From the NCBI GenBank assembly GCA_037043015.1, contig CM073323.1, positions 13,451,758-13,515,757 of the forward strand: DNA of 64,000 bases, in the 5' to 3' direction. Shown one piece after another: positions 9,238-64,000 of this stretch. Made by a program: the position numbers and the translations under genes. The notes under the pieces are model-generated. The model did no database searches, had not been told where the DNA came from, and saw only the letters and a list, made by a program, of their open reading frames with translations. Position 1 is the stretch's first letter. Each line of letters starts with the position of its first letter. The DNA comes from Bryum argenteum. Taxonomy: Eukaryota > Streptophyta > Bryopsida > Bryales > Bryaceae.

Positions 9238-10647
9238 TTAGGTACAATCGAAAATGCTGATGTAGGAAATAGCATCAGACTCACTAGAGAATTCTGGTTG
9301 TATGAATTCTGGTTGATATTCTAATTCTGGTGCTGGTTGATATTCTTTAAACAGTGCTTCTAGAGGTAAAACATTCAAACCATTGGGTTCAGGAGGGCGT
9401 CCGAAGATAGGTTCTTCCTTACCCATATCATATGTCCATCGTTGATAATGAAGGAAGTCTTCTCTGTAATGAGGGTGGTCTGTCCCTCTTAAATGCCCTT
9501 GTCCCGCAACGCAGGCGTAACGGGTAAGCTTGTCAAGCTTTCGTCTGATCTGTCGAACAGTGGGCCTCATCCAAGGCTTTGGATGCCAGCACTTGATTAT
9601 AATATCTCGAATCCAGTAATGAAGATCCTCAGGCAATTCTGGCCTTTGTCCGCTCAGCACAACATCATAATCACTCCAAGCATGCTCCTCGAAGGGAAGG
9701 CGCCCTGTCACAAGCTCATAGCACACCATGCCAAAACTGTACACATCGTTCTTCTTTGTGAACTTCACTTGAGCACTGCTTCTGCCATCCTTCAAGTGGC
9801 GCAGTATCTCAGGTGCCCTCCAGAACCCAGTGCCCACCACACTCATAGAGCATTCATAATCAGCCACATTCAGATCCACGAAATCCTCAGAAAGCATATA
9901 CATAGGATTGGCGCCGAAGAGCACATTAGAAGCTTTCAGATCCTTGTGGATGATGCCGTGTCTGTCGTGCAAGCATTCCATGTCTATTGCAATTTTGTGC
10001 ATGAACTTGGTGATGACGCCGATGGTGAAAGGAGCACCGTGAGTTTTCGCGCGCAACTTTCGGTCATCGATGAACTTCCGAAGGTCGCATACTTGCATGT
10101 CAATCACAAGTGCGAATCTGTTCATCAACCTCTCGTCTTTCAACATGGTTGCGCCTAAAATCCTTTCCAGAGGGCTTTTACTCACATCCTTCGCTGAAAA
10201 CAAGGAGGGAGGTATTTGTCTTTGTGACGAGCGCAAAGGATAGCCTTTCTTGAACACTTTCACCACCACAGGATAGGCACAGCCATGCCTTTTAGCGTAA
10301 TAGATCTCTCCTTGACCTCCCTCCGACATTTTGTGATACACCTCAAGGTTCGGAAAATCCCTGAAGAAATGTTTCCATTGCGGATGCTTCTTCAGTACTT
10401 CCTCAAAGTACACAAGATCGGACTCGGGGTCATAATTATCGTCGGAGTCCGTGGCACGACCCACTTCGCTCCAGTGAACTTCGGAGTGTTCTACACTCTC
10501 AGATGAAGTCCTCTCGGTGAAGTCACTCCTATTTTCGCGCATGCTCTCGATGCGTGGAGAAATGTAGAGCGATAATGTTGACGAATGAGGTGCTGGATCT
10601 GTGGACGTTGAGTTCTCCGTTCTTTTGATGCTTAAAACATTCCCCAT
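9238..10647 (-). CDS. Atypical Ser/Thr-type protein kinase with N-myristoylation motif
   Basis: Single-exon coding region of 469 aa starting MGNVLSIKR. Gly2 and Ser6 fit an N-myristoylation signal, so the product is probably membrane-anchored. Residues 10-100 are acidic and Ser-rich. The kinase domain spans about 104-375: glycine loop SEGGQGE (108-114), VAIK-equivalent lysine K130 in VVVKVFKK, catalytic loop HKDLKASN (234-241; HRD reads HKD), APE at 278-280 and DVYSFG (301-306). The DFG motif reads DYE (263-265): the metal-binding Asp is kept but Phe and Gly are lost, so activity is uncertain. The overall pattern is TKL/RLCK-like. A possible 5' UTR acceptor lies near 10674. The start is supported because the longer open frame begins only with TTG at 10683. 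A Copia element sits 0.8 kb upstream, and a broken copy lies at 38695-38990. Confidence 0.85.
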   Translation of the reverse strand: MGNVLSIKRTENSTSTDPAPHSSTLSLYISPRIESMRENRSDFTERTSSESVEHSEVHWSEVGRATDSDDNYDPESDLVYFEEVLKKHPQWKHFFRDFPNLEVYHKMSEGGQGEIYYAKRHGCAYPVVVKVFKKGYPLRSSQRQIPPSLFSAKDVSKSPLERILGATMLKDERLMNRFALVIDMQVCDLRKFIDDRKLRAKTHGAPFTIGVITKFMHKIAIDMECLHDRHGIIHKDLKASNVLFGANPMYMLSEDFVDLNVADYECSMSVVGTGFWRAPEILRHLKDGRSSAQVKFTKKNDVYSFGMVCYELVTGRLPFEEHAWSDYDVVLSGQRPELPEDLHYWIRDIIIKCWHPKPWMRPTVRQIRRKLDKLTRYACVAGQGHLRGTDHPHYREDFLHYQRWTYDMGKEEPIFGRPPEPNGLNVLPLEALFKEYQPAPELEYQPEFIQPEFSSESDAISYISIFDCT

Positions 10648-11409
10648 AGCCTCGATCTCCAAAACACAAGCCCCTGCATTCAATTATAAAGATAAACACG
10701 ATCATGGCAGGAAACTGCAATCCCAACCCAATTCAGGGGGCTGAAGATGCTAATTGGAGAGGTTTTCTACGAGAGCAACATGAATATCTGATGTACAGAT
10801 TGAATGCCTCTCGCCAGCACATAATGTTCCCACTGCTCATCTATGGTGCGCTTACAAAAAGCCATCGAAGCTCAGGTTGCAGTTCATATAGAAAGGTGCA
10901 TCCATGGATCAATCCATAAAGTACTCGACAAGAAGCTAAAGCAGGGGCGAAACATAAGGAACCTCCTATGCGGACTAATCAATCCACTGTCGAAAGAAAT
11001 GATCTCATTATTGAACCACATGCAGATGTGGGAGACGTACCTTAAATTCCTCGTTGGTACGATCGAGTTCACCTGTATTCGCAAACAGAGTAATCTCACA
11101 TCAGAGGAAATCGCGTTTATCAATCATATGAAGATAAAAGGTTAAAAACACAAGAAGCGTGTCAAATGGTTTCTGCTACATGATCACGTCCAATGTCCCA
11201 CGTGTACACATCACTAGCTTGCCAGCATCAGAAACTATTAAGATAGGCATATCAGAGTGGAACGGAGATTTCCACAAAAGCAATGCTGGAGCAATGCAGT
11301 GGAAATTTCCTGACAAACGCTCCATGAGCTGGAGTTTGACAAACGTATTACATCAGTTGAGAGAAACCAAAATACCATTTTGCACCGGAGCTCTTTCGGA
11401 AGCAAACAA
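10648..11409 (-). promoter_or_regulatory. Kinase 5' leader/promoter region, proximal part
   Basis: Non-coding sequence directly upstream of the kinase ATG. The block at about 11010-11115 (minus strand: TTTGCGAATACAGGTGAAC, then CTCCCACATCTGCATGTGG) recurs at 38040-38140 beside the kinase pseudogene. It therefore belonged to the gene before duplication. It contains intron-like acceptors and probably includes 5' UTR exons. Its distal part was displaced to 16537-17200 by the Copia insertion. Confidence 0.55.
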
Positions 11410-11917: not shown

Positions 11918-14480
11918 CTATATGTTTAGATCGATCATGATATTTTGTATTCTCACTCGAGTAATACAAGACTGGTTGTCACGAGAAAATGATTCCTGGT
12001 AAATACAAAGAGTAACCAAGTTCTTGGAATAGTGCTTGAAGCCAAAGAAGTTCTTTGGTGGCAGTGGCGGCGGCAATGTATTCGGCTTCCGTTGATGACA
12101 AGGCAACAATAGTTTGCTTGCGGCTCTGCCAAGAGAGAAGACATGACGAGTCAATTTGAAAAAGATAACCCGAAGTGGACCGCGGGGTGTCGATATCACA
12201 CCTTAATCAAGATCACTCCAACCATTGATCGATGGGTAGAACTGGATGTGAAGGACTAGTGTACATAAGTCCTTGCTGTGAAGTTCCACGTAGATACCGA
12301 AATATACGTTTGACTCCAAGCCAATGAGCTTGAGTGGGGTCTTGCATAAATTGGGCAAGATGATTGACGGCAAAAGCCAGATCCCACCTTGTGCACATAA
12401 CAAGATATCAAGATCGCCGATGGCTTGTCATGCGGGATCTTGTCCATAATAAGTTGTTTGGAAGAGGGAATAGTATCAGTTTGGTGACATGAGTATCGAA
12501 TTCCAGCTTCTAGAGGCGTTGCAACTGAATGGGAAGCGGCCATATTAAATTTAGTTAGGAGATCGTTGATGTATTTTTCTTGTGATAATAATAAAGTCTT
12601 ATGAATGCGATCTCGGTGAATCTGGATGCCCAAAATATAGCTAATCTCATTGTTATCCGTCATAGAAAAGCGTTGAGCAAATATTGCTTTTGTAGCACAA
12701 AAAAATCGGAAGTTATCAGAGATGATTACGAGATCATCAATATAAAGACCCAAAAAGAGAATAGAAGTATGGTAGCGTTTAATATAAACGTTTGGATCTG
12801 AGGTACACTTAATAAAACCTTGAGTCAATAAAAATTTGTCAAATGTCTCGTACGAAGCTCGCGGGGCCTGCTTTAAACCGTAGAGGGATTTCAACAGGCG
12901 GCAAACTTGATGTGCATTTCGAGGGTTAATGTATCCCTCAGGTTGTGTTATATAAATTTCTTCATGTAAAGTAGCATTTAAAAATGCTGTGATCACGTCC
13001 ATTTGGTGGATGTGATAGTTATAAATAGTAGCTAATGCTAAAAGAAGTCGAAGTGATGTCATCCTAATAACAGGAGAAAAAGTTTCAGTGAAGTCAATGC
13101 CTTCCTGTTGAGAGAAGCCACGAGCCACAAATTGTGCCTTAAAACGTGATAAGGAGCCGTCAGAGTTGTATTTTCTTCGAGAGATCCATTTGGTGCTTAT
13201 AATTGATCTATTTGGTGGTGGATCAACAAGATCCCAAGTGCGATTTGTAATAAGAGAATGATATTCCTTGTCCATAGCTTCTTTCCAGTCTTTAGAGTGT
13301 TCGCTAGCAAGGGCTTCGGAGACTGTAAGAGGATCAGCCAGCTCAGCTAAGAAGCCAAAACTGTACAAGTTTGTGTCATGATACCGAGGGGTATGCCTTT
13401 GTCCTTTGTTTACACGTGCAGACCTCCTAATTGAAGGAGGAGAACTAGGTTCGGTTTGGCGGAAATGAGACCGCTGATGTGCAGTAGTTGGAGCGGTGGA
13501 AGGTGGGTCTTCATCATGGAGAGGAGGTGGGTGCTCTGGTGGGTCCTCAGGTGGATCCTTATCCAATTTGAAATCAACTTGTTGATTGAGTGGCAGGGAG
13601 TTGGAAGGGCCTGGTTGGTCAATGGAAGACTCAGGAACAGTATAGTAAAATTCAACAAGATCGGCCGGAGGAGAAGGAGGCTGTTCATTTAAAAAAGAAT
13701 CGCCTTCAGGCAATAAGGTATCTTCCGAAAAAGTAACATCGCGACTTGTAAAAACGAGCTGATTATCTGGATTATAGAGACGATAGCCCTTGATGCCAGA
13801 AACAGATGAATAGCCAATAAAGATACATTTCGAAGCTTTGAAGTCTAATTTCTTACGATGTTCTTTTATAATATGAGAATAGGCTGGACATCCAAAAATA
13901 CGCAAATCATTGAGATCAGGTCTTAACCCTGTCCATAGTTCATATGGTGTTGTATTATTTAATGAAGTTGAATAAGAACGATTTTGCAGATAGCAGGCAG
14001 TAGCTACAGCTTCTGCCCAAAAGTGTTTGCTCAAATGAGCAACTTGAAGCATACATCTTGCAGCTTCAACTAAAGTTCGGTTCTTCCTTTCCGAGACTCC
14101 ATTTTGGGCAGGATGATAAGGATTGGTCAAGTGACGTTGAATTCCGTGATCTTGACAGAATTTGGTGAAGTTGTTAGATGTAAATTCGCCACCGTTATCG
14201 GAGCGGAGAATAAGTATTTTATGTTTATCATGTTGATTTTCAACTAATGTTTTGTAGGTTTGAAAATGAGATAGAGTAGAAGATTTCTTGTTTAAAAAAT
14301 AGACATGTGTAAAATGGGAGTAATCATCAATGAATAAAAGAAAATATAGAGCACCACCTAATGATGGTGTGCTCATTGGGCCACACAAATCCGTGTGTAT
14401 CAAGGCCAATGGCACAATAGCTCGTGTAGTAGGTCTTTGTTGGTACGAAACTTTGAGTGTGTTTACAACACACCCTCACA
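11918..14480 (-). pseudogene. Copia integrase-RT-RNase H region, frameshifted
   Basis: The open stretch 12256-14415 holds the integrase core (HTDLCGPM, SDNGGEFT, HPAQNGVSERKNRT) and the reverse transcriptase (KWISRRKYNSDGS, QMDVITAFLN, SLYGLKQAPR, catalytic YIDD). After about 12440 the frame shifts. RNase H pieces continue in other frames (AVNHLAQFMQDP near 12370; QTIVALSSTEAEYIAAA near 12080-12120). A further frame break between 14415 and 14570 separates it from gag-protease. It cannot make a full polyprotein. Confidence 0.9.
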
Positions 14481-14568
14481 GAGAGGAGATTGGATTTTAA
14501 TGTATTAGGAAGTCCAGTGACCATATTTTGATTTTGCATGAGAGTAATAAAACGTATATTGAGATGGC

Positions 14569-15986
14569 CTAATCGATAATGCCATTTAAGCGTTTAAAGT
14601 CAAATTTTGACAAAGTTGTAGATAAACAAGTTGACTCGAGGGGTGGGATGCCAATACCCAATGAAAACAAGTTGCCTTCTTTTGGAATTCGTAATATGAT
14701 TTTCTTACTTGAGTTTGGTAACTTGGTCTTGATAAGACATTGAGTCTGAGTGAATGTAATAATTGTATTTCCTTTTGTTGTTATTTGACAAACGGAAAGT
14801 AAATTTTTGGCAAGGCCAGGGACATATAAAACGTCTGGAATTAATAGATTTTCTCCAGTTGGTACTCTTAAAAGAATGGAACCGTAGCCAAGAGCACTGT
14901 GTGAGCGATTGTCACCCAAAATTATAGTTCTTGGAGTGTCGAGAAGTTGATAATCCCAAAAAAATTCTTTTTCAGGAGACATATGTTGACTAGCTCCTGA
15001 ATCTAGGTACCAAGACGAGGAAAGGCCTGAAATATCACACATGGCCGAAAATTGATAGACGGGAGTATCACCAGTAAGATTATTATTAGATTGTCCTTGT
15101 CCAGTCTTTACCTGATCACGTTTCTTCTTTCGACAGTCAGGGGCTTTGTGCCCGGGAATCCCGCAATAGTGACATATAATTGTTCGATAAGATGAGGAAG
15201 TATTTGGGTCATTGGATTTTTGTCCTTGCCAACTCTTTCCACTGTTTCGGGATTGTTCCTGCCAACTCTTTCCACTGTTGCGGAAGTTTTGTTTATAGTT
15301 CTTTGATAATTGACCAGATGAAAATTTATTATGTGAAAATGGCTTAATAAATTTGCCTTTAACATAAAAGGCACTAGATTTGGATACTTCAGGTTTAGAA
15401 TGATTAATGGAATTTTGCTGAAGAATATTAGACAGCAAAGTTGGAAACGTAAGATTGGCAATACCACCTTGTGTGGTTATGAAGGCACTCCAAGAATCTG
15501 GTAAAGCGCCAAGCAACAAGTTAACTTGCTGATCGTCTGTGAATATGCATCCGGCGATTTCAGCTTCGTGAAGAAGCGATTGCCATGTTTCTAAGAAGGA
15601 CATGGTATCGTCGGAGTCAGACATCGTCAAGCGGCAAAGTTGCTTATGCAAGTTTACCTGTGATGCTTTATTAGACTTCTCGTAGAGTTGTTTTAGACGA
15701 TCCCAAACTTCCTTAGAAGTTGTGAGAGATCGTAAAGAAAGTAGCTGCTTCTCGCTACAATGGAGCAAAAGCTCCGATCGGGCTTTGGCATCTCTCAATG
15801 TCCAGTACATCAAGCCTAGTACGTCACTTGCGGCAGGAGAGTCGCATCGCCGCCATCTACGACTCCCCATATTTCGGAGCGAATTAATAATAGTTCAAGT
15901 TTCATACTCCAAGACGCATAATTATCTGCGTTTAGAGGTGGAATGACATAAGCTCGGTTTCTTTGAAGTTAATCCAAATTGGCCAT
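14569..15986 (-). pseudogene. Copia gag-protease region, frameshifted
   Basis: The natural gag start is probably the ATG at 15986 (MANLD). It meets a stop at codon 6, then continues with a typical copia gag N-terminus (NADNYASWSMKLELLL) before a frameshift near 15865. The long open part (14569-15870) has the UBN2-type gag, a CCHC zinc knuckle (CHYCGIPGHKAPDC), the aspartic protease site WYLDSGASQHM and the start of the gag-preintegrase domain. The frame is lost again before the integrase. Confidence 0.9.
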
Positions 15987-21609: not shown

Positions 21610-24600
21610 TTATGACCGAAAAGGTAAGCTCCAGATGGAAGCTTTCTTTTCGTCATTTTCTGCAGCCTGAGCCTTCCTAAGTGCGCGCACCACTTGGGTC
21701 ATGTCTGGACGATTTGCCCCGTATGGTTGTGTGCACAGCTTGGCCACCTCTATCACTCGTTTCAACGCCTTGGGGTTGTAATGGCCGCCTAAATTGGGAT
21801 CCACCACGGGTTTCAGAGCCCTGCCGTTGTAGTGATCCTCCACCTATCACCAATTCTCACACGTTGAGTAAAAGAAAAAACCAGATTGCATTCGTTCTGG
21901 CATAGCAGATTTCAACAATGAAAAGTGGCTTACCCAATCACCGATGAATCGTTTCTTGTCAGAATCTTGAATTGGTTTTCGACCTGTAATAATCTCCAGC
22001 AGAATGACTCCAAAACTGTACACGTCGCTCTTCTCCGTCAACTGCCCGGTTTTCAGATACCTGCAGAAACGTTCGCTCTCAAAGTGAGATAAATGGTAGG
22101 AGCGTTGAAGCTTTGGCAGGCAGGATGATTAACGTAATGGTGAGCGATGGAACATAAATGCATGAGATTGAGAGTGAGTAGTAGTCATACTCTGGGTCTA
22201 GATACCCGAGGGTGCCCTTCACCATTGTCGTCACATGCGTTTTGTTCAGATTTTCTTGGTCCGCGCCCAACTTCGACAGCCCGAAATCAGCAACCTTTGC
22301 AACCATGCTTTTCGTTAAAAGGATGTTCTGACTCTTGATGTCTCGGTGAATGATTCTTGGACTACAACCCGTGTGCAAGTACTCCAGCCCTGACACAGAA
22401 ATTAAGCCACAAGTCAGAAATACATTCTCTGAACGATGAAGAGGTCAAATAATGCACAATGGTGAGATGTGGGAGGGATGATCGTACCACATGCGGACTG
22501 TAATGCAATGTTGAGACGCTGCTTCCAGTTAAGCGACGTTCCTCCAGCTGCATGGTACAAATTCATCCATTATGGTCCAAAAGTTCTGTAGCTCAAAGCA
22601 ACAAATGTACTCAAGAAGTGATTCTGACCTTGAAGGTGGTCCCATATGCTCCCTTCTTCGGCTAGTTCGTAAATAAGAACCTGTCTCTCATCTTGGCAGT
22701 AGCCCAAGAGTCTAATCAGATGCACATGGTTGATCCTCTTGAGCAGGTTCACCTGTCGCAACGTACATGACCAGATCAGTACGCTACGCTTAATACGATC
22801 AGAACATACAAGAGTTGCAGAGTATGAAATAGAACTGTACCTCATTGAGAAACTCATTGATTCCCTGCTGTGAAGTCGCATCAAGAATTTTGACCGCCAC
22901 CTCTTTGCCATTCTCCAGCTTGCCCAAGAATACGGCACCGAAACCACCTTTCCCGAGCTGACGGGAGTTGAGATCATTCGTCATATCGAGCACGTCGTCC
23001 CAGGTAAACTTCTTCACGACGTCCTCGATAATGGACTCACTCATCCTCATTTGCGGGCACGAGGTACTACGGGTACTCTCTGCTCTAGGAGCATGAGCCA
23101 CTGCCGGTTCGGTGCTTGCAGTGGTGGCTGATCTGTGGAGCTCGGGAACTCCGTCTCGGACTGGACCCGAGCCAGAGAATTCTTCGGAGCTCATCTCCGA
23201 GGTAGAGCTCGATTTGTACGTATGCTCGGACGAGACATTGCTCGACTTGTACGCCGGTGATAGCTCACTCGCTTCATGTCGAGTGCTGATCGATCTCTGG
23301 CTTGGTGATGCTTCACCCAAAATATTGTTGGCTTGTAATGGCTTGCCCGGTGAGAACTCGGAGGAGTCAACCCGCCTGCTGCTGCTCGATCGCTGACTCA
23401 GTGATGCTTCACCCGAGATGTTGGCTTGCAATGATTCAGAGCTTTTCACGCCATTGCCCGCCTGATACTCATAGGAGTCAACCCGCCCGCTTCTTTGTGA
23501 TGCTGATGCTTCCCTTGAGATGTTGGCTTGTAACGATTCGGAGCTATTCACGCCATTGCCTGCCTGGTACTCATAGGAGTCAACCCGCCCGCTTCTTCGT
23601 GATGCTGATGCTTCCCCCGAAATGTCGGCGGCTTGTAAGGATTCAGAGCTCCGAGCGCTGTTGTCCTGAACGGAGTCCACCCGTCTGCTGCTCGATCGGT
23701 GGCTCTGTGATGCTTCACCCCGAATGTTGGCTTGTAAAGATTCGGAACTCTTCGCGCCGTTGCCTGCCTGGTACTCATACGAGTCAACCCGCCTGCTCTC
23801 TCTCTGGCTCGGTGATGCATCCCTCGAGATATTGCCTTGTAACGGCTCAAAACTCTTCGTGCCGTTCACCGGAGGGAATTCAGAGGAGTCCGACCGCCTG
23901 CTGCTCGATACCCGTTCCGAAAACTCCTGCGACTTACTGTCAGACCGAGGTGGGAACAGTTCAGAAGATTCTTGCGGCCTGGCTCCGAATGTCGCGCTCT
24001 TTTTGTACACTTGAGGAGGTGCTTCGGAGAGTGACCTTTCGTCAAAGCTGTCGCTCGACTTGTGTAATGGAGGATTGCGTCCCACTGGTGGTCGTGCAGA
24101 GAATTCCTGCGATCCATAAGCTCGTGTTGGTTCTTGCGAGCCTTCCAAGCTGTTGCTTGAAACCTGCGGTGACCAAGGATTGCGTTCCACTGGTGGTCGT
24201 GCAGAGAATTCCTGCGATCCAAAAGCTCGCGTTGGTTCCTGCGAGCCTTCCAAGCTGTTGCTTGAAACCTGCGGTGACCCAGACTTCTGCTGCTCCTCGT
24301 CTACTGGAATTACTTTCTTTAAGTCATTTACAACCCTGAAGAGTTCGCTTACAGCAGATTCTCCATGTTTCTCCGTCATCTCATTAAGAGCTTGTATCTC
24401 CTTCCGAAGAGCTGCTGCCGTATCTAAATTCAATGACGCAGCCAATTTTGTAAGCGTCTCCACGTCCAATATGTCGATCATTATTGTCTCGCCCAAGTAT
24501 GAAATCAACTCTGCATAGAGAATTGCATCGAAAGTATCTTCCACCGGTTTCGACCTTTTGAGTTGACTGTGAACTAGATCAACCTGGAGCATTCGGAAAC

Positions 24601-27600
24601 TAGAGTTAACACCGAAGATCTCATGTTACACGAACATTTGTAGGAATTAAAGAGCGTTACTTATTAAGTTACCTGCTCCCGCACTTCTTCTGAGATTTCA
24701 AGCGACTCTGGCAACTTGTCCAATGCTTGAAGCAACGCAGTATTCACTGACAAGAATTGTTCTGCTACTGTTTTGTGATTCAAGATCTGGAATAGAAATG
24801 CTGGTCAGTAAGCCTGTAACCATCATAAAACCTTCCACCTTGACAATGAAGCGAAAAATAGTGGAGCCTCTCCCTGACAGACGACTCACCAGGTAAAGTT
24901 TGCTGCCCTCGTTGCACAAGAGAATCAAGGATTTAGCCGAATCGAGAGCGGCGTCGAAGGAACTGAAGCATGTGAAAATTTCGTCGGAGACAGGTAAAGC
25001 AGAATCTCGAAACTCCACAAAGAGTGGGAGAAGCATGTTCACGCGCCTTATGAAGGCGGAACACTCCTTTTTGCGAGCCTTGAAGTCTTCTTTGGAGGCT
25101 ATCACATGAATAGTTTCAATGATTTCATGCACTAGAGTCATGGGTGAGCTGCTCTCCACATTGTTGCCCGAGTCATGATCTGGGCCAGCGGCAGCATCTG
25201 ATTCCGCAGAGATCCCGTCGCTTGCTGGAGATTCTCCATGCACCTGCGATGACCTAATCTCCTGGAGGTCGCTTACTGGGGATGGTTCATACTGCTTGCT
25301 CGTGCCATGCACCTGTGGTGACCTGATCTCCTGGAGGTCGCTTACTGGGGATGGTTCATACTGCTTGCTCGTGCCATGCACCTGTGGTGACCTGATCTCC
25401 TGGAGGTCGTTTGCTAGAGATGGTTCGTAATGCTTGGTCGCTTCGTGTAGTTGCGGTGATCTGCTCTCCTGGACGTCACTCGCTGGAGATGATTCATCCT
25501 GGTTGCTCGTTCCATGCACCTGCGGTGACTTAATCTCCTGGAGGTCGCTTGCTGGAGATGGTACATGCTTCATTGAAGGTTTCGAGCGAATTCTCTCCAG
25601 CAACTCGCTTCCTGGAATTTGGTTATGCTGCTTGCTTGCTCCATGCGTTTGCGGTGGTTTGATCCCCTGGACGTCGCTTTCTGGAGATTCTGCTTCATAT
25701 TGCTTGCCCGTTCCATGCACCTGCACTGACCTGCTTCCCTGGAAGCTGCTTGCCGGAGATGGTTCATTCTGGTTGCTTGCTTCGTGCTTCTCCTGAAGGT
25801 CGCTCTCAGGAAATACTTTATCCTGCTCGTATGCTCGCTCCAGCAACTTTTTCTCGAGCGCTATTTTCTCGAGCAACTCGTCAATATCTTCAACCTCCTC
25901 ATGGTCGCTTGCTGGAGATGGTTCATACTGCTCGCTCGTTCCATGCACCTCCAGTGGTTCAGATGGCTCATGCGGTCTGTCCTCTAATTCCCTCGATGCT
26001 TGTGATACATCGGGCAAGTTGTCTAGTACACTGCTTGATTCAAATGCTTCAGCAGCTTCTTCTGGCTCATCTTCATGTGCTCCTCCTGGTGGTTCGCTTA
26101 GACTTGGCTCTGCAAACTCTTCTGATCTAACCTCGTGGGTGTCATTCGATAATACTGCTGGTTCAGGTACCAGGTGCAGCCTGGTCTCATAGGATCTCGA
26201 TTGCTGTTCTTGTGGTGGTGAGGAATCGACTGCTTCGCTTTCAATAGAGCTATACTCTCTGAAATTCTCAAAAACTTCCTGTGACCCAGTGTCCACAACA
26301 TTGCTTAACTCAACATCCTCTAGTGGTGATTCGGTAATCTCCGATGATTCTTCATCTGTCTGTGGTGACTCTAAAACTTCCTTCGAGCCGCTCTCGTCTG
26401 CTGGAGGTGGTTCCTCAACTGCATCGCTTGGCTCAAGTGGCTCAAAAAGCTCCGAAGACGGGTTGCTTCCATCATTCTCTAGTGGTGGTAGCGACCCAAT
26501 GCTGGATTCGCTTGGCACTTGCAAACTGGATACTTCGACATGGTTCTCATCGGAGTTGCTCAATTCATGTTGTTCTGACGAGCTGATTGGATTCTCCACA
26601 GCATCACATACCTACAAGCAGTAAACATGTCTCCAAAGTTTAACACTACTGAATCACAACAACCGTTTCATAAAATCAGGACTCCCACTTTGTAGCCCTC
26701 GAAATTATAGCCCAGAATGATGTAGTGCGAGTACCTGAATGGAGAGCAATTGACGGCGCTCGTCGTGGTGATCCACTCTATTACTGCAAAGATCAATATC
26801 CTCCTGCATGTGTTGATGATTATTAGTTCGAATGCATAAAGAACGCTATCTTTCAAAAGAAGCATCCAGGTTTCAAGATTGAGCATTACCATATAAATCT
26901 CGACCTTGTGCCCGGTCGTCTTGTCTTTGGCCAAAACCGTCAAGATGCCGTCTGCATCAATGTCAAATCGAACAAGGATTTGCGGGACTCCAGCCGGAGC
27001 AGGAGCAATCTCACTGAGTTCCATGGTGGCAATCAACGTGTTATCACATGTCTGAGGATTTTCGCCTTCGAAGATTTGAATGAAGATGCCGGGCTGGTCA
27101 TCGTGGCACGTCGTGAACAGCTGCTCATAGCTTCTCGGGATGCTGGAGTTTCGAGGGTGCATCACATGCATAGCGCCTCCAGCGACCTCTAATCCGAAGG
27201 ACATGGGCGCTACGTCCACTATCAAATAATCTGATAAGTCTTTGTAACCACGAGACATTCCCGATCGAGCAGTAGCCCCACAAACAACAGCTTCCTCAGC
27301 ATTCATGGCTTTGTTCAACTTCGCTTCGTCGTCAAAATACTCGGCTAAAAGTTGCTGCACCTTCGGGATACGACTCGAGCCACCGATTAACACAACTTCG
27401 TAGACGTCGGCTTTCTCTATCTGTGCACGTTGTAGACACTCTTCTACACAAGTAATGCATTTCTCGAACAGGTCCATGTTCATCTCCTCGAAGCAGGCTC
27501 GCGAGATGCTGGAGTGGAAATCAAAATCCTCAAGCAAGGAATCGATCTGAATGGGCGCTTCCATCTCGCTGGAGAGTATCATCTTCACCCTCTCCACTTG

Positions 27601-28816
27601 CAGTTTCAATCTCCTTAGAACGCGTGGGTGACTGGTGATGTCCTGCTCGTGCTTTTGCTGAAGCTCTTGAATGAAATGCTGGAGCAAACGGAGGTCGAAA
27701 TCTTCTCCTCCCAATTGACTGTCGCCGCTGGTAGCCATCACTTCTATCACACCCTCCTCGATGCTAAACAGGGTCACGTCCAGAGAGCCGCCTCCGAGGT
27801 CGAAGATCATCACCTTGTGCTCACCGCTGGGACGCTCGTTCTGTAACGTGTAAGCCAGGGCGGCACAACTGGGCTCACTGACAAGGGTTACGGTTTCTAA
27901 TCCCGCCATCGTGCAGGCGTTCCGGGTTGCTTGTCTTTGCGCCGAGTTGAAGCAGTGCGGCACACTGACGCAAGCGTCGTTGACAACGGACCCCGATGAG
28001 ACCTCCGCAAGGTCTTTCATCTGGCCCAGAATCATTGAGAAGACCTCTTCTGCAGAAAATGCCTTCGCTTTCCCCTTGTATTCCACTTGAATCACTAGCT
28101 TGTCATCTTTCCCATTTGCCACTCGAAATGGCCACTGCAAGTGCACTTTGTCCGAATTGGTTCCCAAGTCACTGAGATTTCTCCCGATCAACCTCTTTGC
28201 ATCTGCAACCGCACATTGATCCATCTCTGTTACTTAAAACGACCCGTCTCTGTTACCTACCAACTGTGAGGGCTCCCTTGACTTATCTGACTTCAAAATT
28301 GTTGATTTTTTTATTCTTTCGAAGATAAGAAACTAGGATGCTTTGAAACCAATAATCGACTCTGGGCAGACTGTAGTACTGGCGACCCCGTGTTTCTCAC
28401 GGTGATGGCGACCTCGAGGTCGCCAGTACTACAGTTGTCCCATCGTCTCTCGAGAAAGCGTGATCAAGAGTCTCAATTGCGTTTTGATTGCTCAAACGAA
28501 TGCTCGTGTTTTCACGTTCATGTTGAGGAGTTAAGTGACTATTAGATACGATAAGCACGGAAAGATTATACAGGAAACGAAGGTCTAACGCACCGAAAAC
28601 GGTGTTGGCAGGGTTCCTGCACACTTGCTCCTTGGCAGCGTCTCCAATGAGGCGCTCGGTGTCGGTGAAGGCGACATAGCTGGGCGAGCTCTGATTCCTC
28701 TTGTCGTTTTCGATGAGCTTGAATCGATTCTCTTCGGCTAACCAGATCCCCGCACGACTGTTTGTGGTCCCCAAGTCGATACCAATGGCGGGTCTCACAT
28801 CCTCTGATTCAGCCAT
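21610..28816 (-). CDS. Hsp70 - UND - receptor-like kinase fusion protein (1975 aa)
   Basis: Eleven exons join in frame: 28594-28816, 26890-28202, 26735-26803, 24890-26611, 24673-24786, 22841-24583, 22629-22752, 22488-22547, 22191-22389, 21934-22060, 21610-21843 (5928 nt). All introns are GT-AG with matching phases. Residues 1-512 are Hsp70: [10 protein letters not shown] (11-20), DLGGGSLDV (209-217), [11 protein letters not shown] (346-356), then the substrate-binding beta domain; the helical lid is missing. 513-1025 is acidic and Ser/Pro-rich with 23-aa repeats. About 1026-1241 matches the UND domain of plant U-box ligases ([24 protein letters not shown]), but there is no U-box. 1242-1660 is Ser-rich repeats. 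The kinase runs from about 1673: GKGGFG, K1712, HRD with D1806, DFG with D1824, so it looks active, RLK/Pelle type. The exon joining Hsp70 to the rest has no ATG near its 5' end and follows an intron of only 123 bp, which argues against two genes. The family is otherwise unknown to me. A role as chaperone-type sensor with kinase output is inference. Confidence 0.75.
23240..24280 (-). repeat. In-frame coding repeats, linker between UND and kinase
   Basis: Two near-identical 105-bp units (35 aa, starting [14 protein letters not shown]) lie at about 24074-24280. Further right-to-left are five or more degenerate ~30-aa units around [14 protein letters not shown] and [12 protein letters not shown]. 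They lengthen a Ser-rich, probably disordered linker and keep the frame. Confidence 0.8.
25225..25790 (-). repeat. In-frame 69-bp coding repeats in the acidic linker
   Basis: The unit [20 protein letters not shown] plus three residues (23 aa, 69 bp) is nearly perfect in the copies at about 25240-25400 and increasingly diverged toward 25790. Unit length is a multiple of three, so copy-number change keeps the downstream UND and kinase in frame. Confidence 0.85.
28371..28434. repeat. Perfect 17-bp inverted repeat in intron 1 of the fusion gene
   Basis: CTGTAGTACTGGCGACC (28371-28387) and its exact reverse complement (28418-28434) enclose 30 bp. That loop contains CCGTGTTTCTCACGG, itself a hairpin, and the right arm overlaps the palindrome CGACCTCGAGGTCG. 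It would form a branched hairpin in the pre-mRNA and could be a fold-back remnant. Confidence 0.85.
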
Positions 28817-33634: not shown

Positions 33635-36600
33635 ATGACGCCCGCTCAGGTGCAGAGAGGTGAAGGCGGAAATGCTCAATTTCTCTTCAAGCGAAATTTG
33701 GAGGACTGGTTGCGAACTGAGCAGGGACAGGGAGATCTTATGGTCGCCGAGGTTCTAAATTGTCTTGACGAAGCGCACCTGTTGTCATTGCCCTTGCCGA
33801 AGGGCGTGCAGTGGCCGGCGCGTCCTGTCGCGAGAAACTACCGCTTCCTCTTTCGACGCCAGGTTGCGAAGCTCCTCGGTTGGACGGATCGGCGCGTTGA
33901 AGGCAATACTCTTGGATTTTCGTTCGATGTGAACAAGGGGTTGCGAGAATGTTGGTGGCCTGATGAGGAGCAGCAGGTAGAGCGCCGCAGCCTCAGCCCA
34001 CTTCTCCGTGGAACCAGCAGGTACGTGCCTTCTCTTCGATTGTCGTTGTGATTGTGGTATCAGAAGCGCTGTTCGGAGATGGACACAGGAGATGAACTCG
34101 ACGTGAGTCTCGATGATCACTTCCGGCCCTTCCGACCACTGCGCAGTGGGATTCTTCCAAACCAGGGTGCTAGCAGTGCACCTCGGCCGACGCAAACGAT
34201 TTCTGTGCAACAAATAGTTTCCTTCTCTGATGCACAAGAGGTGCAAGAGATTCGACAAACGGTGGATTTAAGTCAAGGCTCGGCACCGATTGTGAAGCAG
34301 ACTGTTCGTGCGGTTGGTGAAAGTAGCTCATTGGGAGGGCGTAAGAGGGCACAGTGTGCAGGCGGTGCGGTGCGCGAGGGTCAACAAGGGCAAGGCCGAG
34401 CGCGGAAGCGAAGGCCCTCATCGACGAGGGTTGCCTCAGGTCAGTCCCTCTTTCCCGAACTGAGTGCCGTTGCAAGTTTCGAGTCCCACCTTAGTGGCGC
34501 TTCTGGTCAGTCCCAACTTAGTGGCGCTGCAGGTTTCGAGTCCTTGTTCTCATCTCGAGACCAATCTCACCAGCATGTCTTTGATAATGGACAGGCACCT
34601 GAATAACACACGCATTCTGAGATTGATGAGTTGCTAGGTGCGCTAAATTGGACAGAAGCTTGTGAATTGTCCGGTGATGGAGAAGAACAGTTTGAGCGAA
34701 TCTGGAATAGTGGGCATCTCAACTCGAGAAATGTAACACTCAGAAAAGATGAAAAAAAGAGATTACACATTCCTTTATACGATTTGGGACTACGTGGAAG
34801 AGTCTGCATTGTGCCTCGTCTTGAGCTGTCTAGTTTGGTGATTGATGAGTCAAGCCCTGCCGTGGCTTTGGAGTCCTTCTGGGGTACCATAGTAGCGGAG
34901 TTTTATGATCCAGATGAAGCAATCGACATGCTGTCTGTTTTGCTGTATGGCCCGTGGGGTTGTTTTGATGTCCCAGAGGCGGTCGTTCAGTTCGTTGACG
35001 AAAGAGACGGTCAAACGGTGAGCGACTTGCAGTTGTGGGGTGAACAGCTGGAGGCAGCAGGGTGCGCCGACGAGCAGACTGCTAGTGGAGAGGAGTCGGA
35101 ATACTTACCGGGCCTGTCTGATTCCCAAGCGTGCAGCACGGACAAGCTGGATAACTTGGAACTCACCCCGAACAGCAAGAAGTGGTTTGTCACTCCAGAT
35201 GTGATCACTCGTGAGCTCGGTTTAGACTGTGATCTCTCATTTGAAGACTTCAACGACCTTCCTGTAGAGAAAAGATTTGCATCAGAGATGTGGAATTCTC
35301 CGTCGACCCAGCTTCCGCGCGTGGAGTGGACAGGTGACTCGCCAGGTTTGAAGGAGCCCTTGACTAATTGTACAGATCCAATCCATTTTTTCATGTTGTT
35401 CTGGCCATCGAGTATTCTGCTTCAGATCATTAGGATGACAAACTTATATGCTTCATCATGTACTGCTGAAGGGGGAACGAAAGGCGGGCCGAAATGGTCA
35501 CCACTGATACTCTCTGAACTTCTGATTTTCTTTGGTGTTTTGATGCTCATGTCGTTGAAACGAGTAACACACCAGCGTTTGCACTGGTCTAGAGATTCTG
35601 ATTTGTTTAGAACTCGTGCCATATCTGATGCAATGTCACGAACGCGATTTGAAGGTATTATTCGATGCATACATCTCGTTGACAACAATCAGGTAGTGAC
35701 TACTAGAGGTGACCCAGAATTTAGCAAGATCGCAAAAACTGCTTGGCTCGTGAATGCTCTAAATGACCTTTGTGCTCAGTATTGGAATGCCGAGCAAAAC
35801 CTCTGTGTCGACGAGATGATGATCAAGTACACAGGTAAGTACTCACCAATCCGCCAATATATGAAAGCAAAGCCCACCCAGTATGGAATCAAAATTTTTT
35901 GTCTTGCTAACACCACGTCCAAGTATGTCCAAAAAATCCAAATTTATTGTGGTGCAGATGAGAATCATGATAAAATAGGGAATGTAGGTTCTAGAACAGT
36001 GTTGTCATTGTTAGAAGGTTATGGTGGTAAAGGGCATATTGTGACCTGTGACAACTTCTTCACAAGTCCTCACTTGTTTTGGGAGTTGATGAAGAACAAC
36101 ATTTTTGCAACTGGGACAATACGTACAAACCGTAAGGGTTGGCCGGATGCTTTGACGATGGCGTCATCAGGTGGAAGAAGAGGCCAATTGTGGTACCGTG
36201 TTCACTCTTCAAACCGGATGTGTGCTGTGACCTGGTACGATAACAAACCTGTCTCATTGATCTCCACTGCGTGTAGCCCTGTTGATTGTTCTAAGTCTTT
36301 GTTTGTTGAGCGGTGGCATGAGACTAGTACTATTGAGATTCCTTCTTCTCCCGTTCTTGTGCACTACCAGAAGCATATGCGCGGAGTTGATGTACAAGAT
36401 CAACTTCGCAGTTACTACTCAGTGCAACGGCGAGACCACAAGTGGTGGCACAAGATCCTTTGGCACGTGGTTGATCAAACCTTACTAAATTCTTACACTC
36501 TCTATGTTACCGCAATGAAGGAACGAGGCAAGAAACCACTTTCACACCTCGGTTTCAATTTGAGTGTTGCATATGCTCTTACAAAAGTGCCCAAGGTGAA

Positions 36601-36871
36601 GCGGACATGTATGCCAAAGGCTAAGGTAAAAAATCGTGGAGGTTTGCATTATAGTATGGCATGGTCCGGACACAGAACACGAAAGCGTAGGACTTGTGTA
36701 GTTTGCAAGAAAGTTCAACAATATTATTGTCCAACATGTCAAGAAGCAATGTGCCTTGGCAACTGCTACGTGAAGCACCACAGCAATTTGCCTGAGCACC
36801 AGAACATTCAAGTACAGGACCTACCTAGATCACGAGGAGGGAGGCCAATCAAGTGTCCAAAGAGGCCATGA
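33635..36871 (+). pseudogene. piggyBac transposase with two in-frame stops
   Basis: One frame runs from the ATG at 33635, interrupted by TGA at 34049-34051 and TAA at 34604-34606. The remaining 34607-36871 is open. Both stops are one C-to-T change away from Arg and Gln codons; the first could instead lie in a tiny intron (donor GTACGTGCC at 34021). The N-terminal part is basic and unrecognised. The C-terminal part has the full DDE core: Asp codon at 35810 in CVDEMMIKYTG, Asp at 36050 in VTCDNFFTS, and Asp at 36389 and 36398 in RGVDVQDQL. KWWHKILWHVVD follows, then a Cys-rich zinc domain (CVVCKK, CPTCQEAMC). Catalytic residues are intact, so the loss is at the N-terminus. Confidence 0.85.
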
Positions 36872-55440: not shown

Positions 55441-58400
55441 TTAAATGGAGACACTGTTAGGGATACCCTTGTTGGTGAGCCCAGAACCAGAAAAGGGTCG
55501 AAGAAGTTCATACGGCACTTGCGTAGGCCCATTCCGGTTCTTGAGTGCCGGATTTTTGTTCCTCGACTTGATGAGAGCATCGACCTCCTCCACGGCCTTG
55601 GAGAATTTCGCAAACGCCGCCTCCACCTGGACACAAAATCATGCTTCACATTAGTTCTCATATCCATGGAACAAGATCAGATTGGCTGGTGATTGAGTGG
55701 AGTATGCAGGCTTACCTTGGGGTTCGAGGTCCAGCCATCAGGGCGTTGGCCGAGATACTCCTCGTTGGAGGCATGCGTGGAGAGAATCTCGATCGTGGTC
55801 ATGTTGATTCTGGCGAGCACGGGATTGAGAAGCATGGACATGAGATACTTCTCGGGATTCGCTTGCATTTGATCCCACTCCGGGCTGTCTTCCTCGGGGA
55901 TGAGCTTGCGAGTGAGCGAAGGGTGGTTGGGCATGAAGCCCGCGTACAAGTATTGGCCGAAGTTCACAGCCGCATGGTGGCACGACGCAACCCACGCGAT
56001 CGTGGTGATGATTTGCACCAGATTGTCCTTCGAGTCGGCCATGATCCAGCCCTCAGTGATATCCGCGTGCCCTTTCGTGCGCACTTCCGTCCACCAGTTT
56101 TGGACCTCAGCATCGGCTCGCACTGCCGCGTCGTCGGCGTAGAAGATGTCGATGTGGTCCTTCACCCATGTGCGAATCGCCGCCCACAAGTCCAGCCCAT
56201 CATTCGCGTACGGGTAGTCCTCGATCACGAGCTTCAGGCCGTGCGGAGCACTTGCGTCCGGCACCGCTAAACCCCTCTTGATCAAATCATTCGGAAGCGC
56301 CTGATCGACGAAACGCCATCCTCTGTACACAACGGAGGAGATTTCGAGGGCGTATTTCTGGGGAGTGAAGGTTGATTCGACGATCCCGCCGGCGTTGATG
56401 AGCGTGTTACGAGCTTGTTGGTTGATGTCCATGGTGTTCTTGTAGTGTGGAACAAGTGCTTTGTGCACCGGGTGCAGGCTGCTCAACTGCCGATTGGTGG
56501 CAATGACAAAGGGCTCAATTGCCGCGTGTGTCCGCAGCCTACATCACCCACACTCCGTTAAGCCAATGCACTGGTGGTCAATCTGGCAATTTCAAATAGA
56601 TCTGAGCTTACCAGTGGCTGATGACCTGGTGCCAGGACGAGTCGTTGCTCTGTACGTGGGCTTTCGCAAGCTCCCACGCCCAGTTGATAGTCGAGCCTTG
56701 CGGAGCCGGACGAAACACTCGGAACACGGGAGCGTCTCCGGGCGCCGGGCCTGGAAGTGCAAGCTCGATACAAACAGGTTTCAAGATGCCAGCCTTCGTG
56801 AGGAAGAAGAGCGTCCAGGAGGCGTACGCTTGACTAGGTTTCTGCTCGTTGATGCGCTGGATGTAGCCCATGAATCGCTCATGGTAGTCCAACACAAACA
56901 ACTTCTTCTGTTCCAAAGCCTGCGAACACCACCACATTCGCTTTTCAGTATAACCCGAACATAAATTACTCAGTCTATACGAGCTTTGTGCCGGATGATT
57001 TCTCACCTCGGAAACGGTGAGCCCTTCAAGCGCAGGCTCGATGATCTCGGCAGTGACGGCAGATGCCCTCTTCAATGGAAATTCCTGTAGTGATCACGGC
57101 CACTGCACCATTCAGCAATGTCCGGAAAGCGAGAAAATCCGATCGAAGTAGGGTAGAGTGTAGTAAGTACCTTGAGAGCTTCAATAAGCAAAGGATTCAT
57201 GCCGGCCAACACCTGACGAGCGAACTCAATGTCTTTCGACCACGCGTTCTTGTCAGCTGCATGCACAAAAAAGCATCAGAACATTGCCTCGATCGATCAT
57301 TCGAACGTGTGCTATGCTCCGAAGTCTTTCTAGTGATAAGTCGGGCCCAAAATCATCAGAATATGGCCTAGATCATTCGGACGAACTATTCTCCGAAGAC
57401 TTACCTGCAATGAGTCGGGGCGTCGGGTACTTGAACGCGTTCTGGTTATCGCCTTCAGCTGCAAAGATTTGGCGAAGGAGCTCGAACGGTTGTTGTTGGT
57501 ATTTAGCTGCGGCTGCGAGACTAGAATCCTTTTCGTCCTTCACGTACATCGTCCGCACTTCGTTCAAGTCTTGAAACTCCTTGTCGGTGTCGAGAATTTC
57601 ACCAACAGCTTTGTGTTTCTGCCCCTTGAGGAAGTTTCCCAAGAATCCAGATCGCTTCACCTCGTCGAACACTTCATCTCTCGGAATGTAGTTGCTCGCT
57701 AGTTTGCTACCGCTGATCCTCGTCTCCGTTTTCCCATCTGCTCACACACAGAGAACGTTAGCATCACCAAAACCATGTCGGCCGAAGTTGCAAATCCCAC
57801 AAATAATGGTCGAAATAGTACCTTTGTTCAACTTCCGACCCGTGCGGCATCGACGCGGGTATGGAAACTCCTTCGATCCTCCAAGAATGTGCCTTGGATT
57901 CTCTGGGGTGCCCAAATCATTGTACACGTCGTAGTCGTAGATTCGCTCCCCTTCTTTCCTCTCCCCTTTCCCGTCTCCTCGAAGCTCGTTGAGCTCGTGC
58001 TCCCTCAGTGCCTTGAGACCGGCCGGAGTGGTTTCCGGTGTGTATTCCTGCAAAATCACAAACGTCAGAACAAAACTTGGGTCGCGGTACGATACTTTCG
58101 CAGAAGGTGGTCAAGGCGCGTACCTTGTTGACGAAGAACACTCGTCCTCCGGGATGCTTGCTCATCTCCGACGGGTAAACCCACGAATTGCATGCGAAGC
58201 TAACGACACTCTTGTCCGGCATAGTGACGTGCGCTTCCGTGAGCTTGAACTCAGTCGAGATGGTGATCTTGCTGATGATGAGCGTCAAGTTTTTATGTCC
58301 ATTGTTGACGATGATTGCCCCTGGCTTACCGAAGCTCTTCGGCACGTAGAAGTCGAGGTTGTACTCGAATGGAGTCGGTATGAACAAGTCTCTGGGTTTG

Positions 58401-58972
58401 CCCCAATGCTCCACCGTCACCTTTGCACTCAATTGCCCCGACTTCGTCACTGCCATCAAAATTACCCCATCAGCAAACCATGGCAGACTTCAAAAAGGCT
58501 ACCGACACTTTCGGACTAGAGATAGCTTACCAGGGTCGATCTCGGTGGCACTGGCGAGCTGGAAGGTGATCCGATTGTTGATGGCTTCCTGGGCGAGCTC
58601 AATGAGATCCGAGATGGGGTTGCCGATATCAATGCCGGCCACATTGGCGCGCATGATGGTGACCTGAGCTTTGAGCAGCATGAGGTTGGGATCCTTGGAA
58701 GGGTCGTGAGCGGCGGCACCGAATAAGCCGAATCCATGGCTGAAGGGATTCAGCTTCTCAAGCAAGGATTCGTGGTTCGACACCACCGTGGTCCCGTTCG
58801 ACGCCGACTTCACCGCCAGAGAGACCGTCTCCTTCGGGACCTCGGGAATCGGGTCCGGAATGGGCTTCTCGGTCGTCACTTCCCCGCCTCCGAACAGCAA
58901 GAACAGCTCCCTCGGTGACTTCAAGAACAACGACTCATCCTTAGCGGAGACCACCATCTTGACTACCTGCAT
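55441..58972 (-). CDS. Lipoxygenase, complete (935 aa)
   Basis: Adds O2 to linoleic/linolenic acid to start oxylipin synthesis. Nine phase-consistent exons: 58531-58972, 58124-58449, 57822-58047, 57405-57737, 57171-57256, 57007-57084, 56612-56919, 55716-56538, 55441-55626. The PLAT domain spans about 108-256; the catalytic domain follows to the end. All five iron ligands are present: H599 and H604 (ISHWLRTHA), H788 and N792 ([10 protein letters not shown]) and the terminal I935 of GIPNSVSI. The N-terminus before PLAT (about 107 aa) is long, but it is acidic in parts and not a clear transit peptide. Start: ATG 58972, with another in-frame ATG at 58957. It has the same exon boundaries and phases as the truncated gene at 57-900. 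Confidence 0.93.
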
Positions 58973-61237: not shown

Positions 61238-63987
61238 TCAGAACCCGTTAATATATACATGTGTGGCATTTAAATCTGCTTCATTGGGGGGAGCTGGATC
61301 ATGGTTCCTTTCCTCTTCATTTGGCATTTGTTTGTCATCAGAAACAGGTAATCGGCTTCGCTTCAGCCAAGGTGCAATCGTATCATTCTTGTTGACATCG
61401 GTGGAATTGAAGACCATGTCAGGCAAGCATTGCCAACCATTTGCAAAGTCTCGAGTCTCCAAGTGTCCTTTCCTTTCTGCGTCAGAAGAATGAGCTCCCA
61501 CTTCTGAGCTCACCTTGTCAATGATGGAACCGAAAAAAACCTGTTTAAATTGTGTTGTGGTGTCAAGCTTCACCTGATCCGGTCGCGGGATCACGTCAAG
61601 GTTCCCGTTGTTCCCTTCCCGTGCATCTCCTCCATTGATGGGCTCTGTTTTAGGTTCTAACCAATGTACGCCTGCACCGGACCCTAATTTGTCTAAAGCT
61701 GGACAGTCGTGATCACTCGCCTCACTTGGACCAGAGATCAATTGTTTATGACTCTCTGGAGGAACTGAGGAGAGCTCCAGTTTTGGAGCGTCATGTTGCA
61801 GCTCTAGACTTCTGTGAGTGGATGAATCCATCAGATTATTCAATTGACGAGAAGTTTCCTTCGTGTTATCATCACTAGTTATCTCTTGTCTATTATTATG
61901 ATGTGAGGCTTGATATTGCCAGTTCATGGGCTCTCCAAAAAGTAAGTCATCTCTTCCCTCTCGCCGTAGAGTTGTCTTTCTTTTGATCCTTTTGATCTCC
62001 TTCGGCGGACACACTTCCTCAATCGGCTCAGTCTTCGGTCGTTTCGTCGTGACCGGCTTCAAATCATCTGTCACTTGCCCCGCACCCTTCTCCGAAAGAG
62101 AACCATGACAGCCTGCTTCAGAATCGCGTATGTTGTCTACTTCCTCAATTTGTTCTCGAGGAGTCGATGTGGCATCCTCTGGTCCACCATCGATCCTCAT
62201 ATCGTCCGCCTCTTGCTGCCTCTCCGGTCTTTCAAGCTGAAGAATTTGTGTTTCTTTCTCGGCTACATCGACAAGAGAGGGTTAGCAATGTGCTGGTACC
62301 ATCTCCATCGATAGGGAGTACTTCTACGACTGGAATTTTGAGTTTACTTTGTAAATTATCAGATCTGACTTCGATGATGGTCTTCTAAATTCAAATTACA
62401 GACATGTTATAAGATCATCTTCAATGTGAAGAGCCAATAAGACGGGTACATAAGAAACAATAGATAGCCAACACTTAGAAACTCCAGATGCATTGATGGG
62501 TGCTAGAAGAGCATTAATATCCATATCTGACACTAGTTTGATGTGAGAGAAAGGCACTGGTGACTCACCGCAGATTTCAGCCTGCCCAGACCCGATGTGA
62601 GACAGTGTCTCAACAGTGCGAGAGGTACCCTCTCCTACGTCATACTGAACAGAGTCTGAGTGCGCATTGTCGTCATTATCAGCAGTCTTCCTTCGTACAA
62701 GAGCCGAGTAGATGGCTTTCGTTTTGGGTTTCGACGGCTTGAGTTGAGGTAGAGTAGAAGGTTGTGACGATGTCTGAGAGGGCTCGTCCTCATCCTGTTC
62801 GTCCTCAGAACTGGAACTCAGTGGCTGGTAGGCTTGCAGAATGTGAGCCTCTCCATCGTAATGCCTCTGGTATGCTTGAAGAGGGACCACAGGCTTGATT
62901 GTACCTATCATGACGTCTAACTTGTAATGATTCTCCCAATCTTTGGGTGACATGCGTGGAGTTGGAAGCTCTACAACACGAAACACATGAACCAGGAACA
63001 CTGGATTGCTTGGGTTCGGATCCATGAGTTCAAACACCAAAGCATCTCCTTCTTCCAGACAATGAGAAAGTGAGAATTCTCTGAAGCTTTTCAAGCAAGC
63101 ACTCTTCTTCCGATTCCCAGCCCAGCGTGCAGTTGATTTCTGGCCCCCAGAGTCCATCAGTGTCACTCTAACAAGTTTTCTGGGAAGCCATTGCTTCGCA
63201 AATGCGCTTGGTATAGACTGCAACGAACACATCCAGTGTTAAGAGTTTCATCCTATTTTGATGACTCAGTAGAAATTAATTCGATACTTAGAGGTGAAGT
63301 CAAGCCACTCTTCTTCATGGAGGCACATGCAATGTGAGAAGGATCAAATTGACGGCTATATTTATTACAAGAGTTAGGAGCGAGACCTACCACAAGAAAG
63401 TGGCAATAAACACTTGAGTTTCTCATGACAACCGTAACGCTTGGATTTTTGGTGTTTAAGTTCCGCGCGCCCAGCTCTGCCCTCCTCCTCTCCTCCATTG
63501 TCACAGGGCGTCTTCGAGACTGGAGAGCTGTGTATTTGTAGCTTGGCATATTAGGCAGCACATTAGCCCCTCTCAAAGGGGAACCACTCCCACCAAGCTT
63601 CTCCATTCTGCACCCGCTATACGCAGGCAATTTAGGGACAGGAGGCCCTATCCCTTTCGGTTTTGCTCGACTTTTTCGTTTTCTCTTCGAGAAATCTGTA
63701 GGAGCTCTTCGTTCTTCGCTCTTTCGAACCTGTATCGGCTCTGACACGTGATCGTCCAACTCGATTCTAAAAATGTGAATCAACAGTGAAAGGTTTATAC
63801 GATCGATCATCTCAAATACGCAAACATCTCCTTCCTCCAACAGGTGGTCCACAGCAAATCTCTTCCAACCAGCGCTCAGTCGCCTCCCTGATTGATTTAC
63901 AAGCCATTTGCACGGCCAAGTCTGACCTGTAGAGTCCACCAAGGTCGCATCTCTAGTCTCATCAGGCAATGCAGCACATCGCAACGT
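61238..63987 (-). CDS. Two-B3-domain transcription factor-like protein, 5' end outside window
   Basis: B3 domains bind DNA; tandem-B3 proteins of this look belong to the REM-like group. Exons 63391-63987, 62569-63217 and 61238-62262 join in phase; an acceptor at 63988 shows that upstream exons lie beyond the window. The first B3 is cut at its start (ATLVDSTGQTWPCKW, LLEEGDVCVFEMID, IHIFRIE). The second spans the first intron and is complete (SVTVVMRNSSVYCHFLV|SIPSAFAKQWLP, LMDSGGQK, LEEGDALVFELMD, VHVFRVVE). A basic stretch SKRKRKSRAKPK could be a nuclear signal. The C-terminal ~340 residues are acidic and disordered-looking, with two KTEP motifs (RPKTEPIEE, EPKTEPING). Stop at 61238-61240. 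Confidence 0.88.
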
Positions 63988-64000
63988 CTGCAATGGAAAA

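Follow-up and report, generated by a model that had tools for sequence, protein, structure and literature searches.

A predicted gene of the moss Bryum argenteum joins a lidless Hsp70, a PUB-type UND domain and a receptor-like kinase in one reading frame

The closest described counterparts of the gene analyzed in this study are two Physcomitrella patens proteins, which are listed in Table 2 of Nishii et al. 2021 with the domains MCAfunc, Pkinase and HSP70 (PMC8049495). The domain combination is therefore already in print, and the preliminary description of the present locus, in which a protein of this domain order was taken to be undescribed, needs correction as to the set of domains (PMC8049495). 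As annotated there, the two proteins have three domains in common with the fusion. Within the open-licence literature, the domain set was found only in PMC8049495, and no functional study of the HSP70-MCAfunc-Pkinase combination was found. A second related system is Pm13 from Aegilops longissima and wheat, termed a "kinase fusion protein", in which an MLKL-type N-terminal domain (MLKL_NTD) is combined with an RLK/Pelle kinase of the LRR_8B subfamily that retains its catalytic residues; in the available text, its authors leave the role of the N-terminal domain between cell killing and effector perception (PMC10951266). New in this study are the lidless state of the Hsp70, the sequence relation of the UND to MLKL N-terminal domains, the donor genes with their introns, and an alternative start. 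The first two and the alternative start, as well as the introns that the kinase has in common with a malectin-type receptor-like kinase (RLK), had been missed in the preliminary description.

The window, that is, the whole 64,000-nt stretch analyzed, corresponds to C3:13451758-13515757 of B. argenteum, and the assembly searched comprises 258.8 Mb in 25 contigs. The 30.6-Mb chromosome that carries the window also encodes an RNA polymerase alpha C-terminal domain, presumably of plastid type, in line with a moss genome, as rpoA has moved to the nucleus in mosses. On the minus strand, a predicted gene runs from 28816 to 21610 and places HSP70 and Pkinase in one spliced frame, as in the P. patens type. 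Re-splicing reproduced the previously described 11 exons with their phases, giving 5928 nt with 1975 codons and one terminal stop, and Pfam agrees with the three domains (Hsp70, UND and RLK/Pelle kinase) that had been correctly named. All 10 introns are GT-AG introns with sizes of 81-391 bp. Exon 1 (28594..28816) carries the start codon and residues 1-74 of the Hsp70, and exon 2 (26890..28202) carries the Hsp70 ATPase and substrate-binding beta domains up to residue 512, with the lid and the EEVD tail absent. Exon 3 (26735..26803) is a 69-bp bridging exon encoding residues 513-535, and its skipping would keep the frame because it is 69 bp long and in phase 0. Exon 4 (24890..26611) encodes linker 1 (residues 536 to ~1018) and the beginning of the UND, exon 5 (24673..24786) the middle of the UND, and exon 6 (22841..24583) the end of the PUB-like N-terminal region, linker 2 and the start of the kinase. 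The rest of the kinase and the stop codon are encoded by exons 7-11 (21610..22752), comprising exon 7 (22752-22629), exon 8 (22547-22488), exon 9 (22389-22191), exon 10 (22060-21934) and exon 11 (21843-21610), the last of which carries the kinase end and the stop codon. The domain order is Hsp70 ATPase and substrate-binding beta, linker 1, UND, linker 2 and kinase. Linker 1 is disordered, acidic and Ser/Glu/Pro-rich with 69-bp repeats, and linker 2, which places ~420 residues between the UND and the kinase, is disordered and Ser-rich and also contains repeats. Within intron 1, an inverted repeat with 17-nt arms (28434-28418 and 28387-28371) was spotted by eye, perhaps a small mobile-element remnant.

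The Hsp70 part matches the Pfam HSP70 profile with an E value of 3.1e-160 over profile positions 1-498 of 599, and since the match stops there, the lid is missing. Alignments to solved Hsp70 structures span residues 8-10 to 510-512, and exon 2 ends at codon 512. The ATPase motifs IDLGTT, DAAK, SEP, FDLGGG and GGSSRIPK are kept in the structure alignment. Compared with cytosolic Hsp70s (HSC70, CrHSP70A and the copies of this genome), the fusion has the complete ATPase and substrate-binding beta domain as well as intron 1 (present in three copies), but it lacks the lid and EEVD and carries the substitutions T204S and R272M (HSC70 numbering). An Hsp70 without a lid is expected to bind peptides loosely and fast. 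Among the Hsp70s of the genome, the five cytosolic-type copies (L011-L015) share 52-53% identity with the fusion Hsp70, and the group of three, L016-L018, shares 45-46%; L016 has the ER-type C-terminus HEEL. Intron 1 lies at the same site and in the same phase as an intron of the cytosolic Hsp70 genes L013, L014 and L015, and L011 and L012 have no intron at this position. A lid remnant in exons 3-4 was also considered and rejected, as the tail did not clearly beat shuffled sequences against any of nine Hsp70s: the lid score was matched by 43, 50 and 49 of 500 shuffles for L013, L014 and L015, respectively; against each of the remaining six, 265-449 of the 500 did so.

The UND region matches Pfam PUB10_N (E 7.9e-26) and, in addition, MLKL_N (PF22215; E 5.5e-7), where its 29.6 bits lie just above the cut-off of 27; the UNDs of the ordinary PUBs on C8 and C10 score below it (22.5 and 24.3 bits). 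The Pfam MCAfunc profile (PF19584), which covers the same region as PUB10_N, gave 17.3 bits (E 0.004) against a cut-off of 35; Nishii et al. used an HMM of their own (PMC8049495). A profile combining the fusion UND with those of four PUBs of the genome yielded eight matches in the PDB at E<=10, seven of which are MLKL N-terminal domains, the best being mouse MLKL (4e-4); the eighth is NUP155 (E 1.4). The single UND sequence had no PDB match at E<=1 and a profile was needed, so the relation between UND and MLKL is one of remote homology. Judged from sequence, the UND is a relative of the MLKL four-helix N-terminal domain. Unlike in MLKL and Pm13, it is neither N-terminal, being preceded by the Hsp70 and linker 1, nor near the kinase.

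Over the aligned stretch, the UND is 56% identical to that of a PUB gene at C8:12.04 Mb, which encodes a PUB13/PUB10-type ligase. Both UND introns are common to the two genes, both boundaries of exon 5 matching introns of the PUB, and the alignment opens at the PUB's own start (ESSS versus MGESSS). The U-box and ARM repeats of these ligases are replaced here by linker 2 and the kinase, and neither was found by Pfam in the scanned pieces of the fusion protein. A search of the genome returned nine UND matches in five loci. A kinase is present only in the window gene, and the other four loci (on C8, C10, C9 and C6) all encode U-box and Arm domains.

The kinase part was identified by Pfam with an E value of 2.2e-52. 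Its best PDB match, aligned over most of the kinase length, is SYMRK, which we take to be the Lotus counterpart of DMI2. The catalytic motifs, including DFG, are kept in the PDB alignment, as in Pm13 and in contrast to MLKL, which is a pseudokinase (PMC10951266). As far as that paper describes Pm13, the fusion resembles it in placing an MLKL-type helical domain ahead of an RLK/Pelle kinase with catalytic residues, and differs from it in that Pm13 has no Hsp70 and its kinase belongs to LRR_8B, whereas the nearest solved kinase here is SYMRK (PMC10951266). The likeness to malectin-type (LRR-I-like) RLKs and SYMRK lies in the kinase domain, and all five kinase introns correspond in position and phase, compared by eye, to those of L041, an RLK whose kinase is preceded by a malectin-like domain. 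In comparison with malectin-type RLKs, the fusion has no ectodomain, no ectodomain family being found in the Pfam scans of the fusion protein, and no stretch of the protein stands out as a transmembrane segment, the 19-residue hydropathy peaking at 1.39 (the usual transmembrane threshold lies near 1.6). On the kinase sequence and its intron pattern, the kinase is derived from a malectin-type RLK.

Altogether, eight of the 10 introns lie at a donor position and in the donor phase, one from a cytosolic Hsp70, two from a PUB and five from a malectin-type RLK, suggesting that the fusion was built from genomic DNA and not from retrocopies. As the gene retains the introns of its donors, the course of its assembly can still be read. 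No second Hsp70-kinase locus was seen in the genome in searches that scored 126 of the 1018 kinase candidates and give counts as lower bounds; the one locus seen compares with the two P. patens proteins listed in PMC8049495. Three truncated donor pieces at one locus, in a window that also holds a copia-type element and a DDE transposase, could be read as a dead chimera of gene fragments captured by mobile elements and without function. We consider this highly improbable, as the donor parts are only ~45-56% identical to their nearest relatives, yet the frame runs through 1975 codons without a stop, the catalytic motifs of both Hsp70 and kinase are intact, and the repeats of linker 2 point to protein-level constraint. 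Moreover, P. patens has the same domain set according to the table in PMC8049495.

Introns 2 and 3, which flank exon 3, are the only two that match no intron of the compared donor genes, and the link between exons 2 and 4 therefore rests on the least supported stretch of the gene. These unmatched introns cut both ways, being expected of a stitched fusion, yet offering no comparative support within the genome. They would also fit two adjacent genes, namely a 3'-truncated Hsp70 and a separate UND-kinase starting from the ATG at 26809, M882 or M1026. In exon 4, which begins at residue 536, the first in-frame Met is residue 882 (base 25573), preceded by 346 codons, and the earlier statement that no ATG occurs there for hundreds of codons was thus borne out; the next is residue 1026 (25141), which is close to the start of the related PUB at C8:12.04 Mb. 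A further in-frame ATG at 26807..26809 (minus strand) overlaps the acceptor of exon 3 (ACATGCAG/GAG) and has C at both -3 and +4, a context that we take to be weak by the start-codon consensus. It could be the start of a shorter UND-kinase form. The earlier claim that no start can be found for a separate gene is thus not fully accurate, the ATG at 26809 and M1026 near the PUB start being candidates. The interval between exons 2 and 4 (26889-26612) contains neither a TATA-like nor an AATAAA site. In the 1500 bp upstream of the gene, no heat-shock element with three units was found, and there is one two-unit match at -1432.

The open frame at the beginning of exon 4 is hard to ascribe to chance. 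The probability of 346 open codons before M882 is ~1.6e-8 at that base composition, and when the first 354 codons of exon 4 were simulated 5000 times with a first-order Markov model, none of the simulated stretches stayed open. By codon log-odds, the fusion frame is the best of the three forward frames in 7/7 segments, and the antisense frames score lower than the fusion frame in six segments; in exon 3, which has only 23 codons, one antisense frame outscores the coding frame (0.551 versus 0.361). The log-odds are lowest before M882, at 0.056 bits per codon. Repeat copies were also compared with one another. In linker 2, three copies differ 4, 4 and 26 times at codon positions 1, 2 and 3, indicating clear protein-level constraint, and a two-copy repeat in the same linker has too few differences to be informative. 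In linker 1 after M882, five copies, the fifth partial, show 44, 52 and 84 differences, a moderate apparent excess at position 3. The corresponding counts before M882 are 46, 45 and 53, so that constraint is hardly visible there from the repeat copies, and this weak signal is not taken as proof.

Two adjacent genes would have in their favor the introns 2 and 3, unseen in the donor genes compared, the in-frame ATGs at 26809, 25573 and 25141, and the nearness of M1026 to a PUB start. However, they would have to be separated within the 278 bp between exons 2 and 4 with neither an AATAAA nor a TATA-like site, a start at M882 or M1026 would leave 346 or 490 upstream in-frame open codons unexplained, and the Hsp70 would finish in an unrelated tail without a lid. 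In addition, all three domains occur together in the two P. patens proteins as tabulated in PMC8049495. The two-gene reading is accordingly quite improbable, and one fused protein is the best reading of the locus. From the splicing and coding evidence, the predicted gene very probably gives rise to a single fused protein.

If so, mosses join a chaperone ATPase directly to both of the modules that are combined in Pm13, a resistance protein of a wheat relative, and a kinase fusion protein exists outside flowering plants. The fusion probably, though by no means surely, has a role in cytosolic stress or immune signaling. Since the UND is MLKL-related and an active kinase accompanies a domain of this type in Pm13 as well, we infer that the fusion may be, like Pm13, a kinase fusion protein, here cytosolic and with an Hsp70 added as regulator or bait. 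Under this proposal, the one gene would give one large cytosolic kinase fusion protein, in which the lidless Hsp70, bound to a client, to a partner or to its own chain, would hold the UND and kinase inactive. Once the client or the nucleotide state changes, both would be freed; the UND would then assemble at membranes or dock to receptor complexes, and the kinase would relay the signal, as has been proposed for wheat Pm13. In a sub-version, the Hsp70 part would serve to bait pathogen proteins that target Hsp70. Gating of the UND and kinase by the Hsp70 is a tentative idea that we hold to be somewhat less likely than its opposite. A still more specific version, a chaperone-gated necroptosis-like switch, is unlikely; here the Hsp70 ATPase would stand in place of the NLR-type ATPases of other immune proteins, and folding stress or a pathogen protein in the lidless peptide site would release the MLKL-like bundle and the kinase. 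A single fused protein would offer a genetically tractable test in Physcomitrium of whether folding state gates an MLKL-like and kinase output.

A real fusion could instead serve mainly as a scaffold of receptor complexes, in which the PUB N-terminal part and the RLK kinase would reflect a partnership of PUBs with RLKs and the Hsp70 would assist in folding or recruiting kinases, with neither gating nor cell death involved. Legume PUBs bind or ubiquitinate RLK kinase domains, as in the pairs LjPUB13-NFR5 and MtPUB1 with LYK3 and DMI2 (PMC6171183), and the best PDB match of the fusion kinase is SYMRK. Nevertheless, the available part of that study credits the binding to ARM repeats, which are absent from the fusion, and no role of the UND in kinase binding was found in it (PMC6171183). 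We consider a scaffold possible but rather doubtful, and prefer the signaling role of a Pm13-kind protein.

Elsewhere in the window, Pfam scans covered 12 of the 28 listed open frames. A 481-residue open frame at 9241-10683 (minus strand) contains another kinase domain (E 1.7e-27). A copia-type retrotransposon lies at 12259-15894 (minus strand) in two open frames, with gag at 14572-15894 and integrase and reverse transcriptase at 12259-14475. On the plus strand, a 754-residue open frame at 34607-36868 carries a DDE_Tnp_1_7 transposase domain (E 1.1e-77), which we take to be of the piggyBac-like type. Pieces of a lipoxygenase gene are found at 55680-58489 (minus strand), with the domain at 55680-56543 (1.9e-129) and a PLAT match just under the cut-off at 57920-58489, and two open frames at 62399-63999 (minus strand) encode B3 DNA-binding domains.
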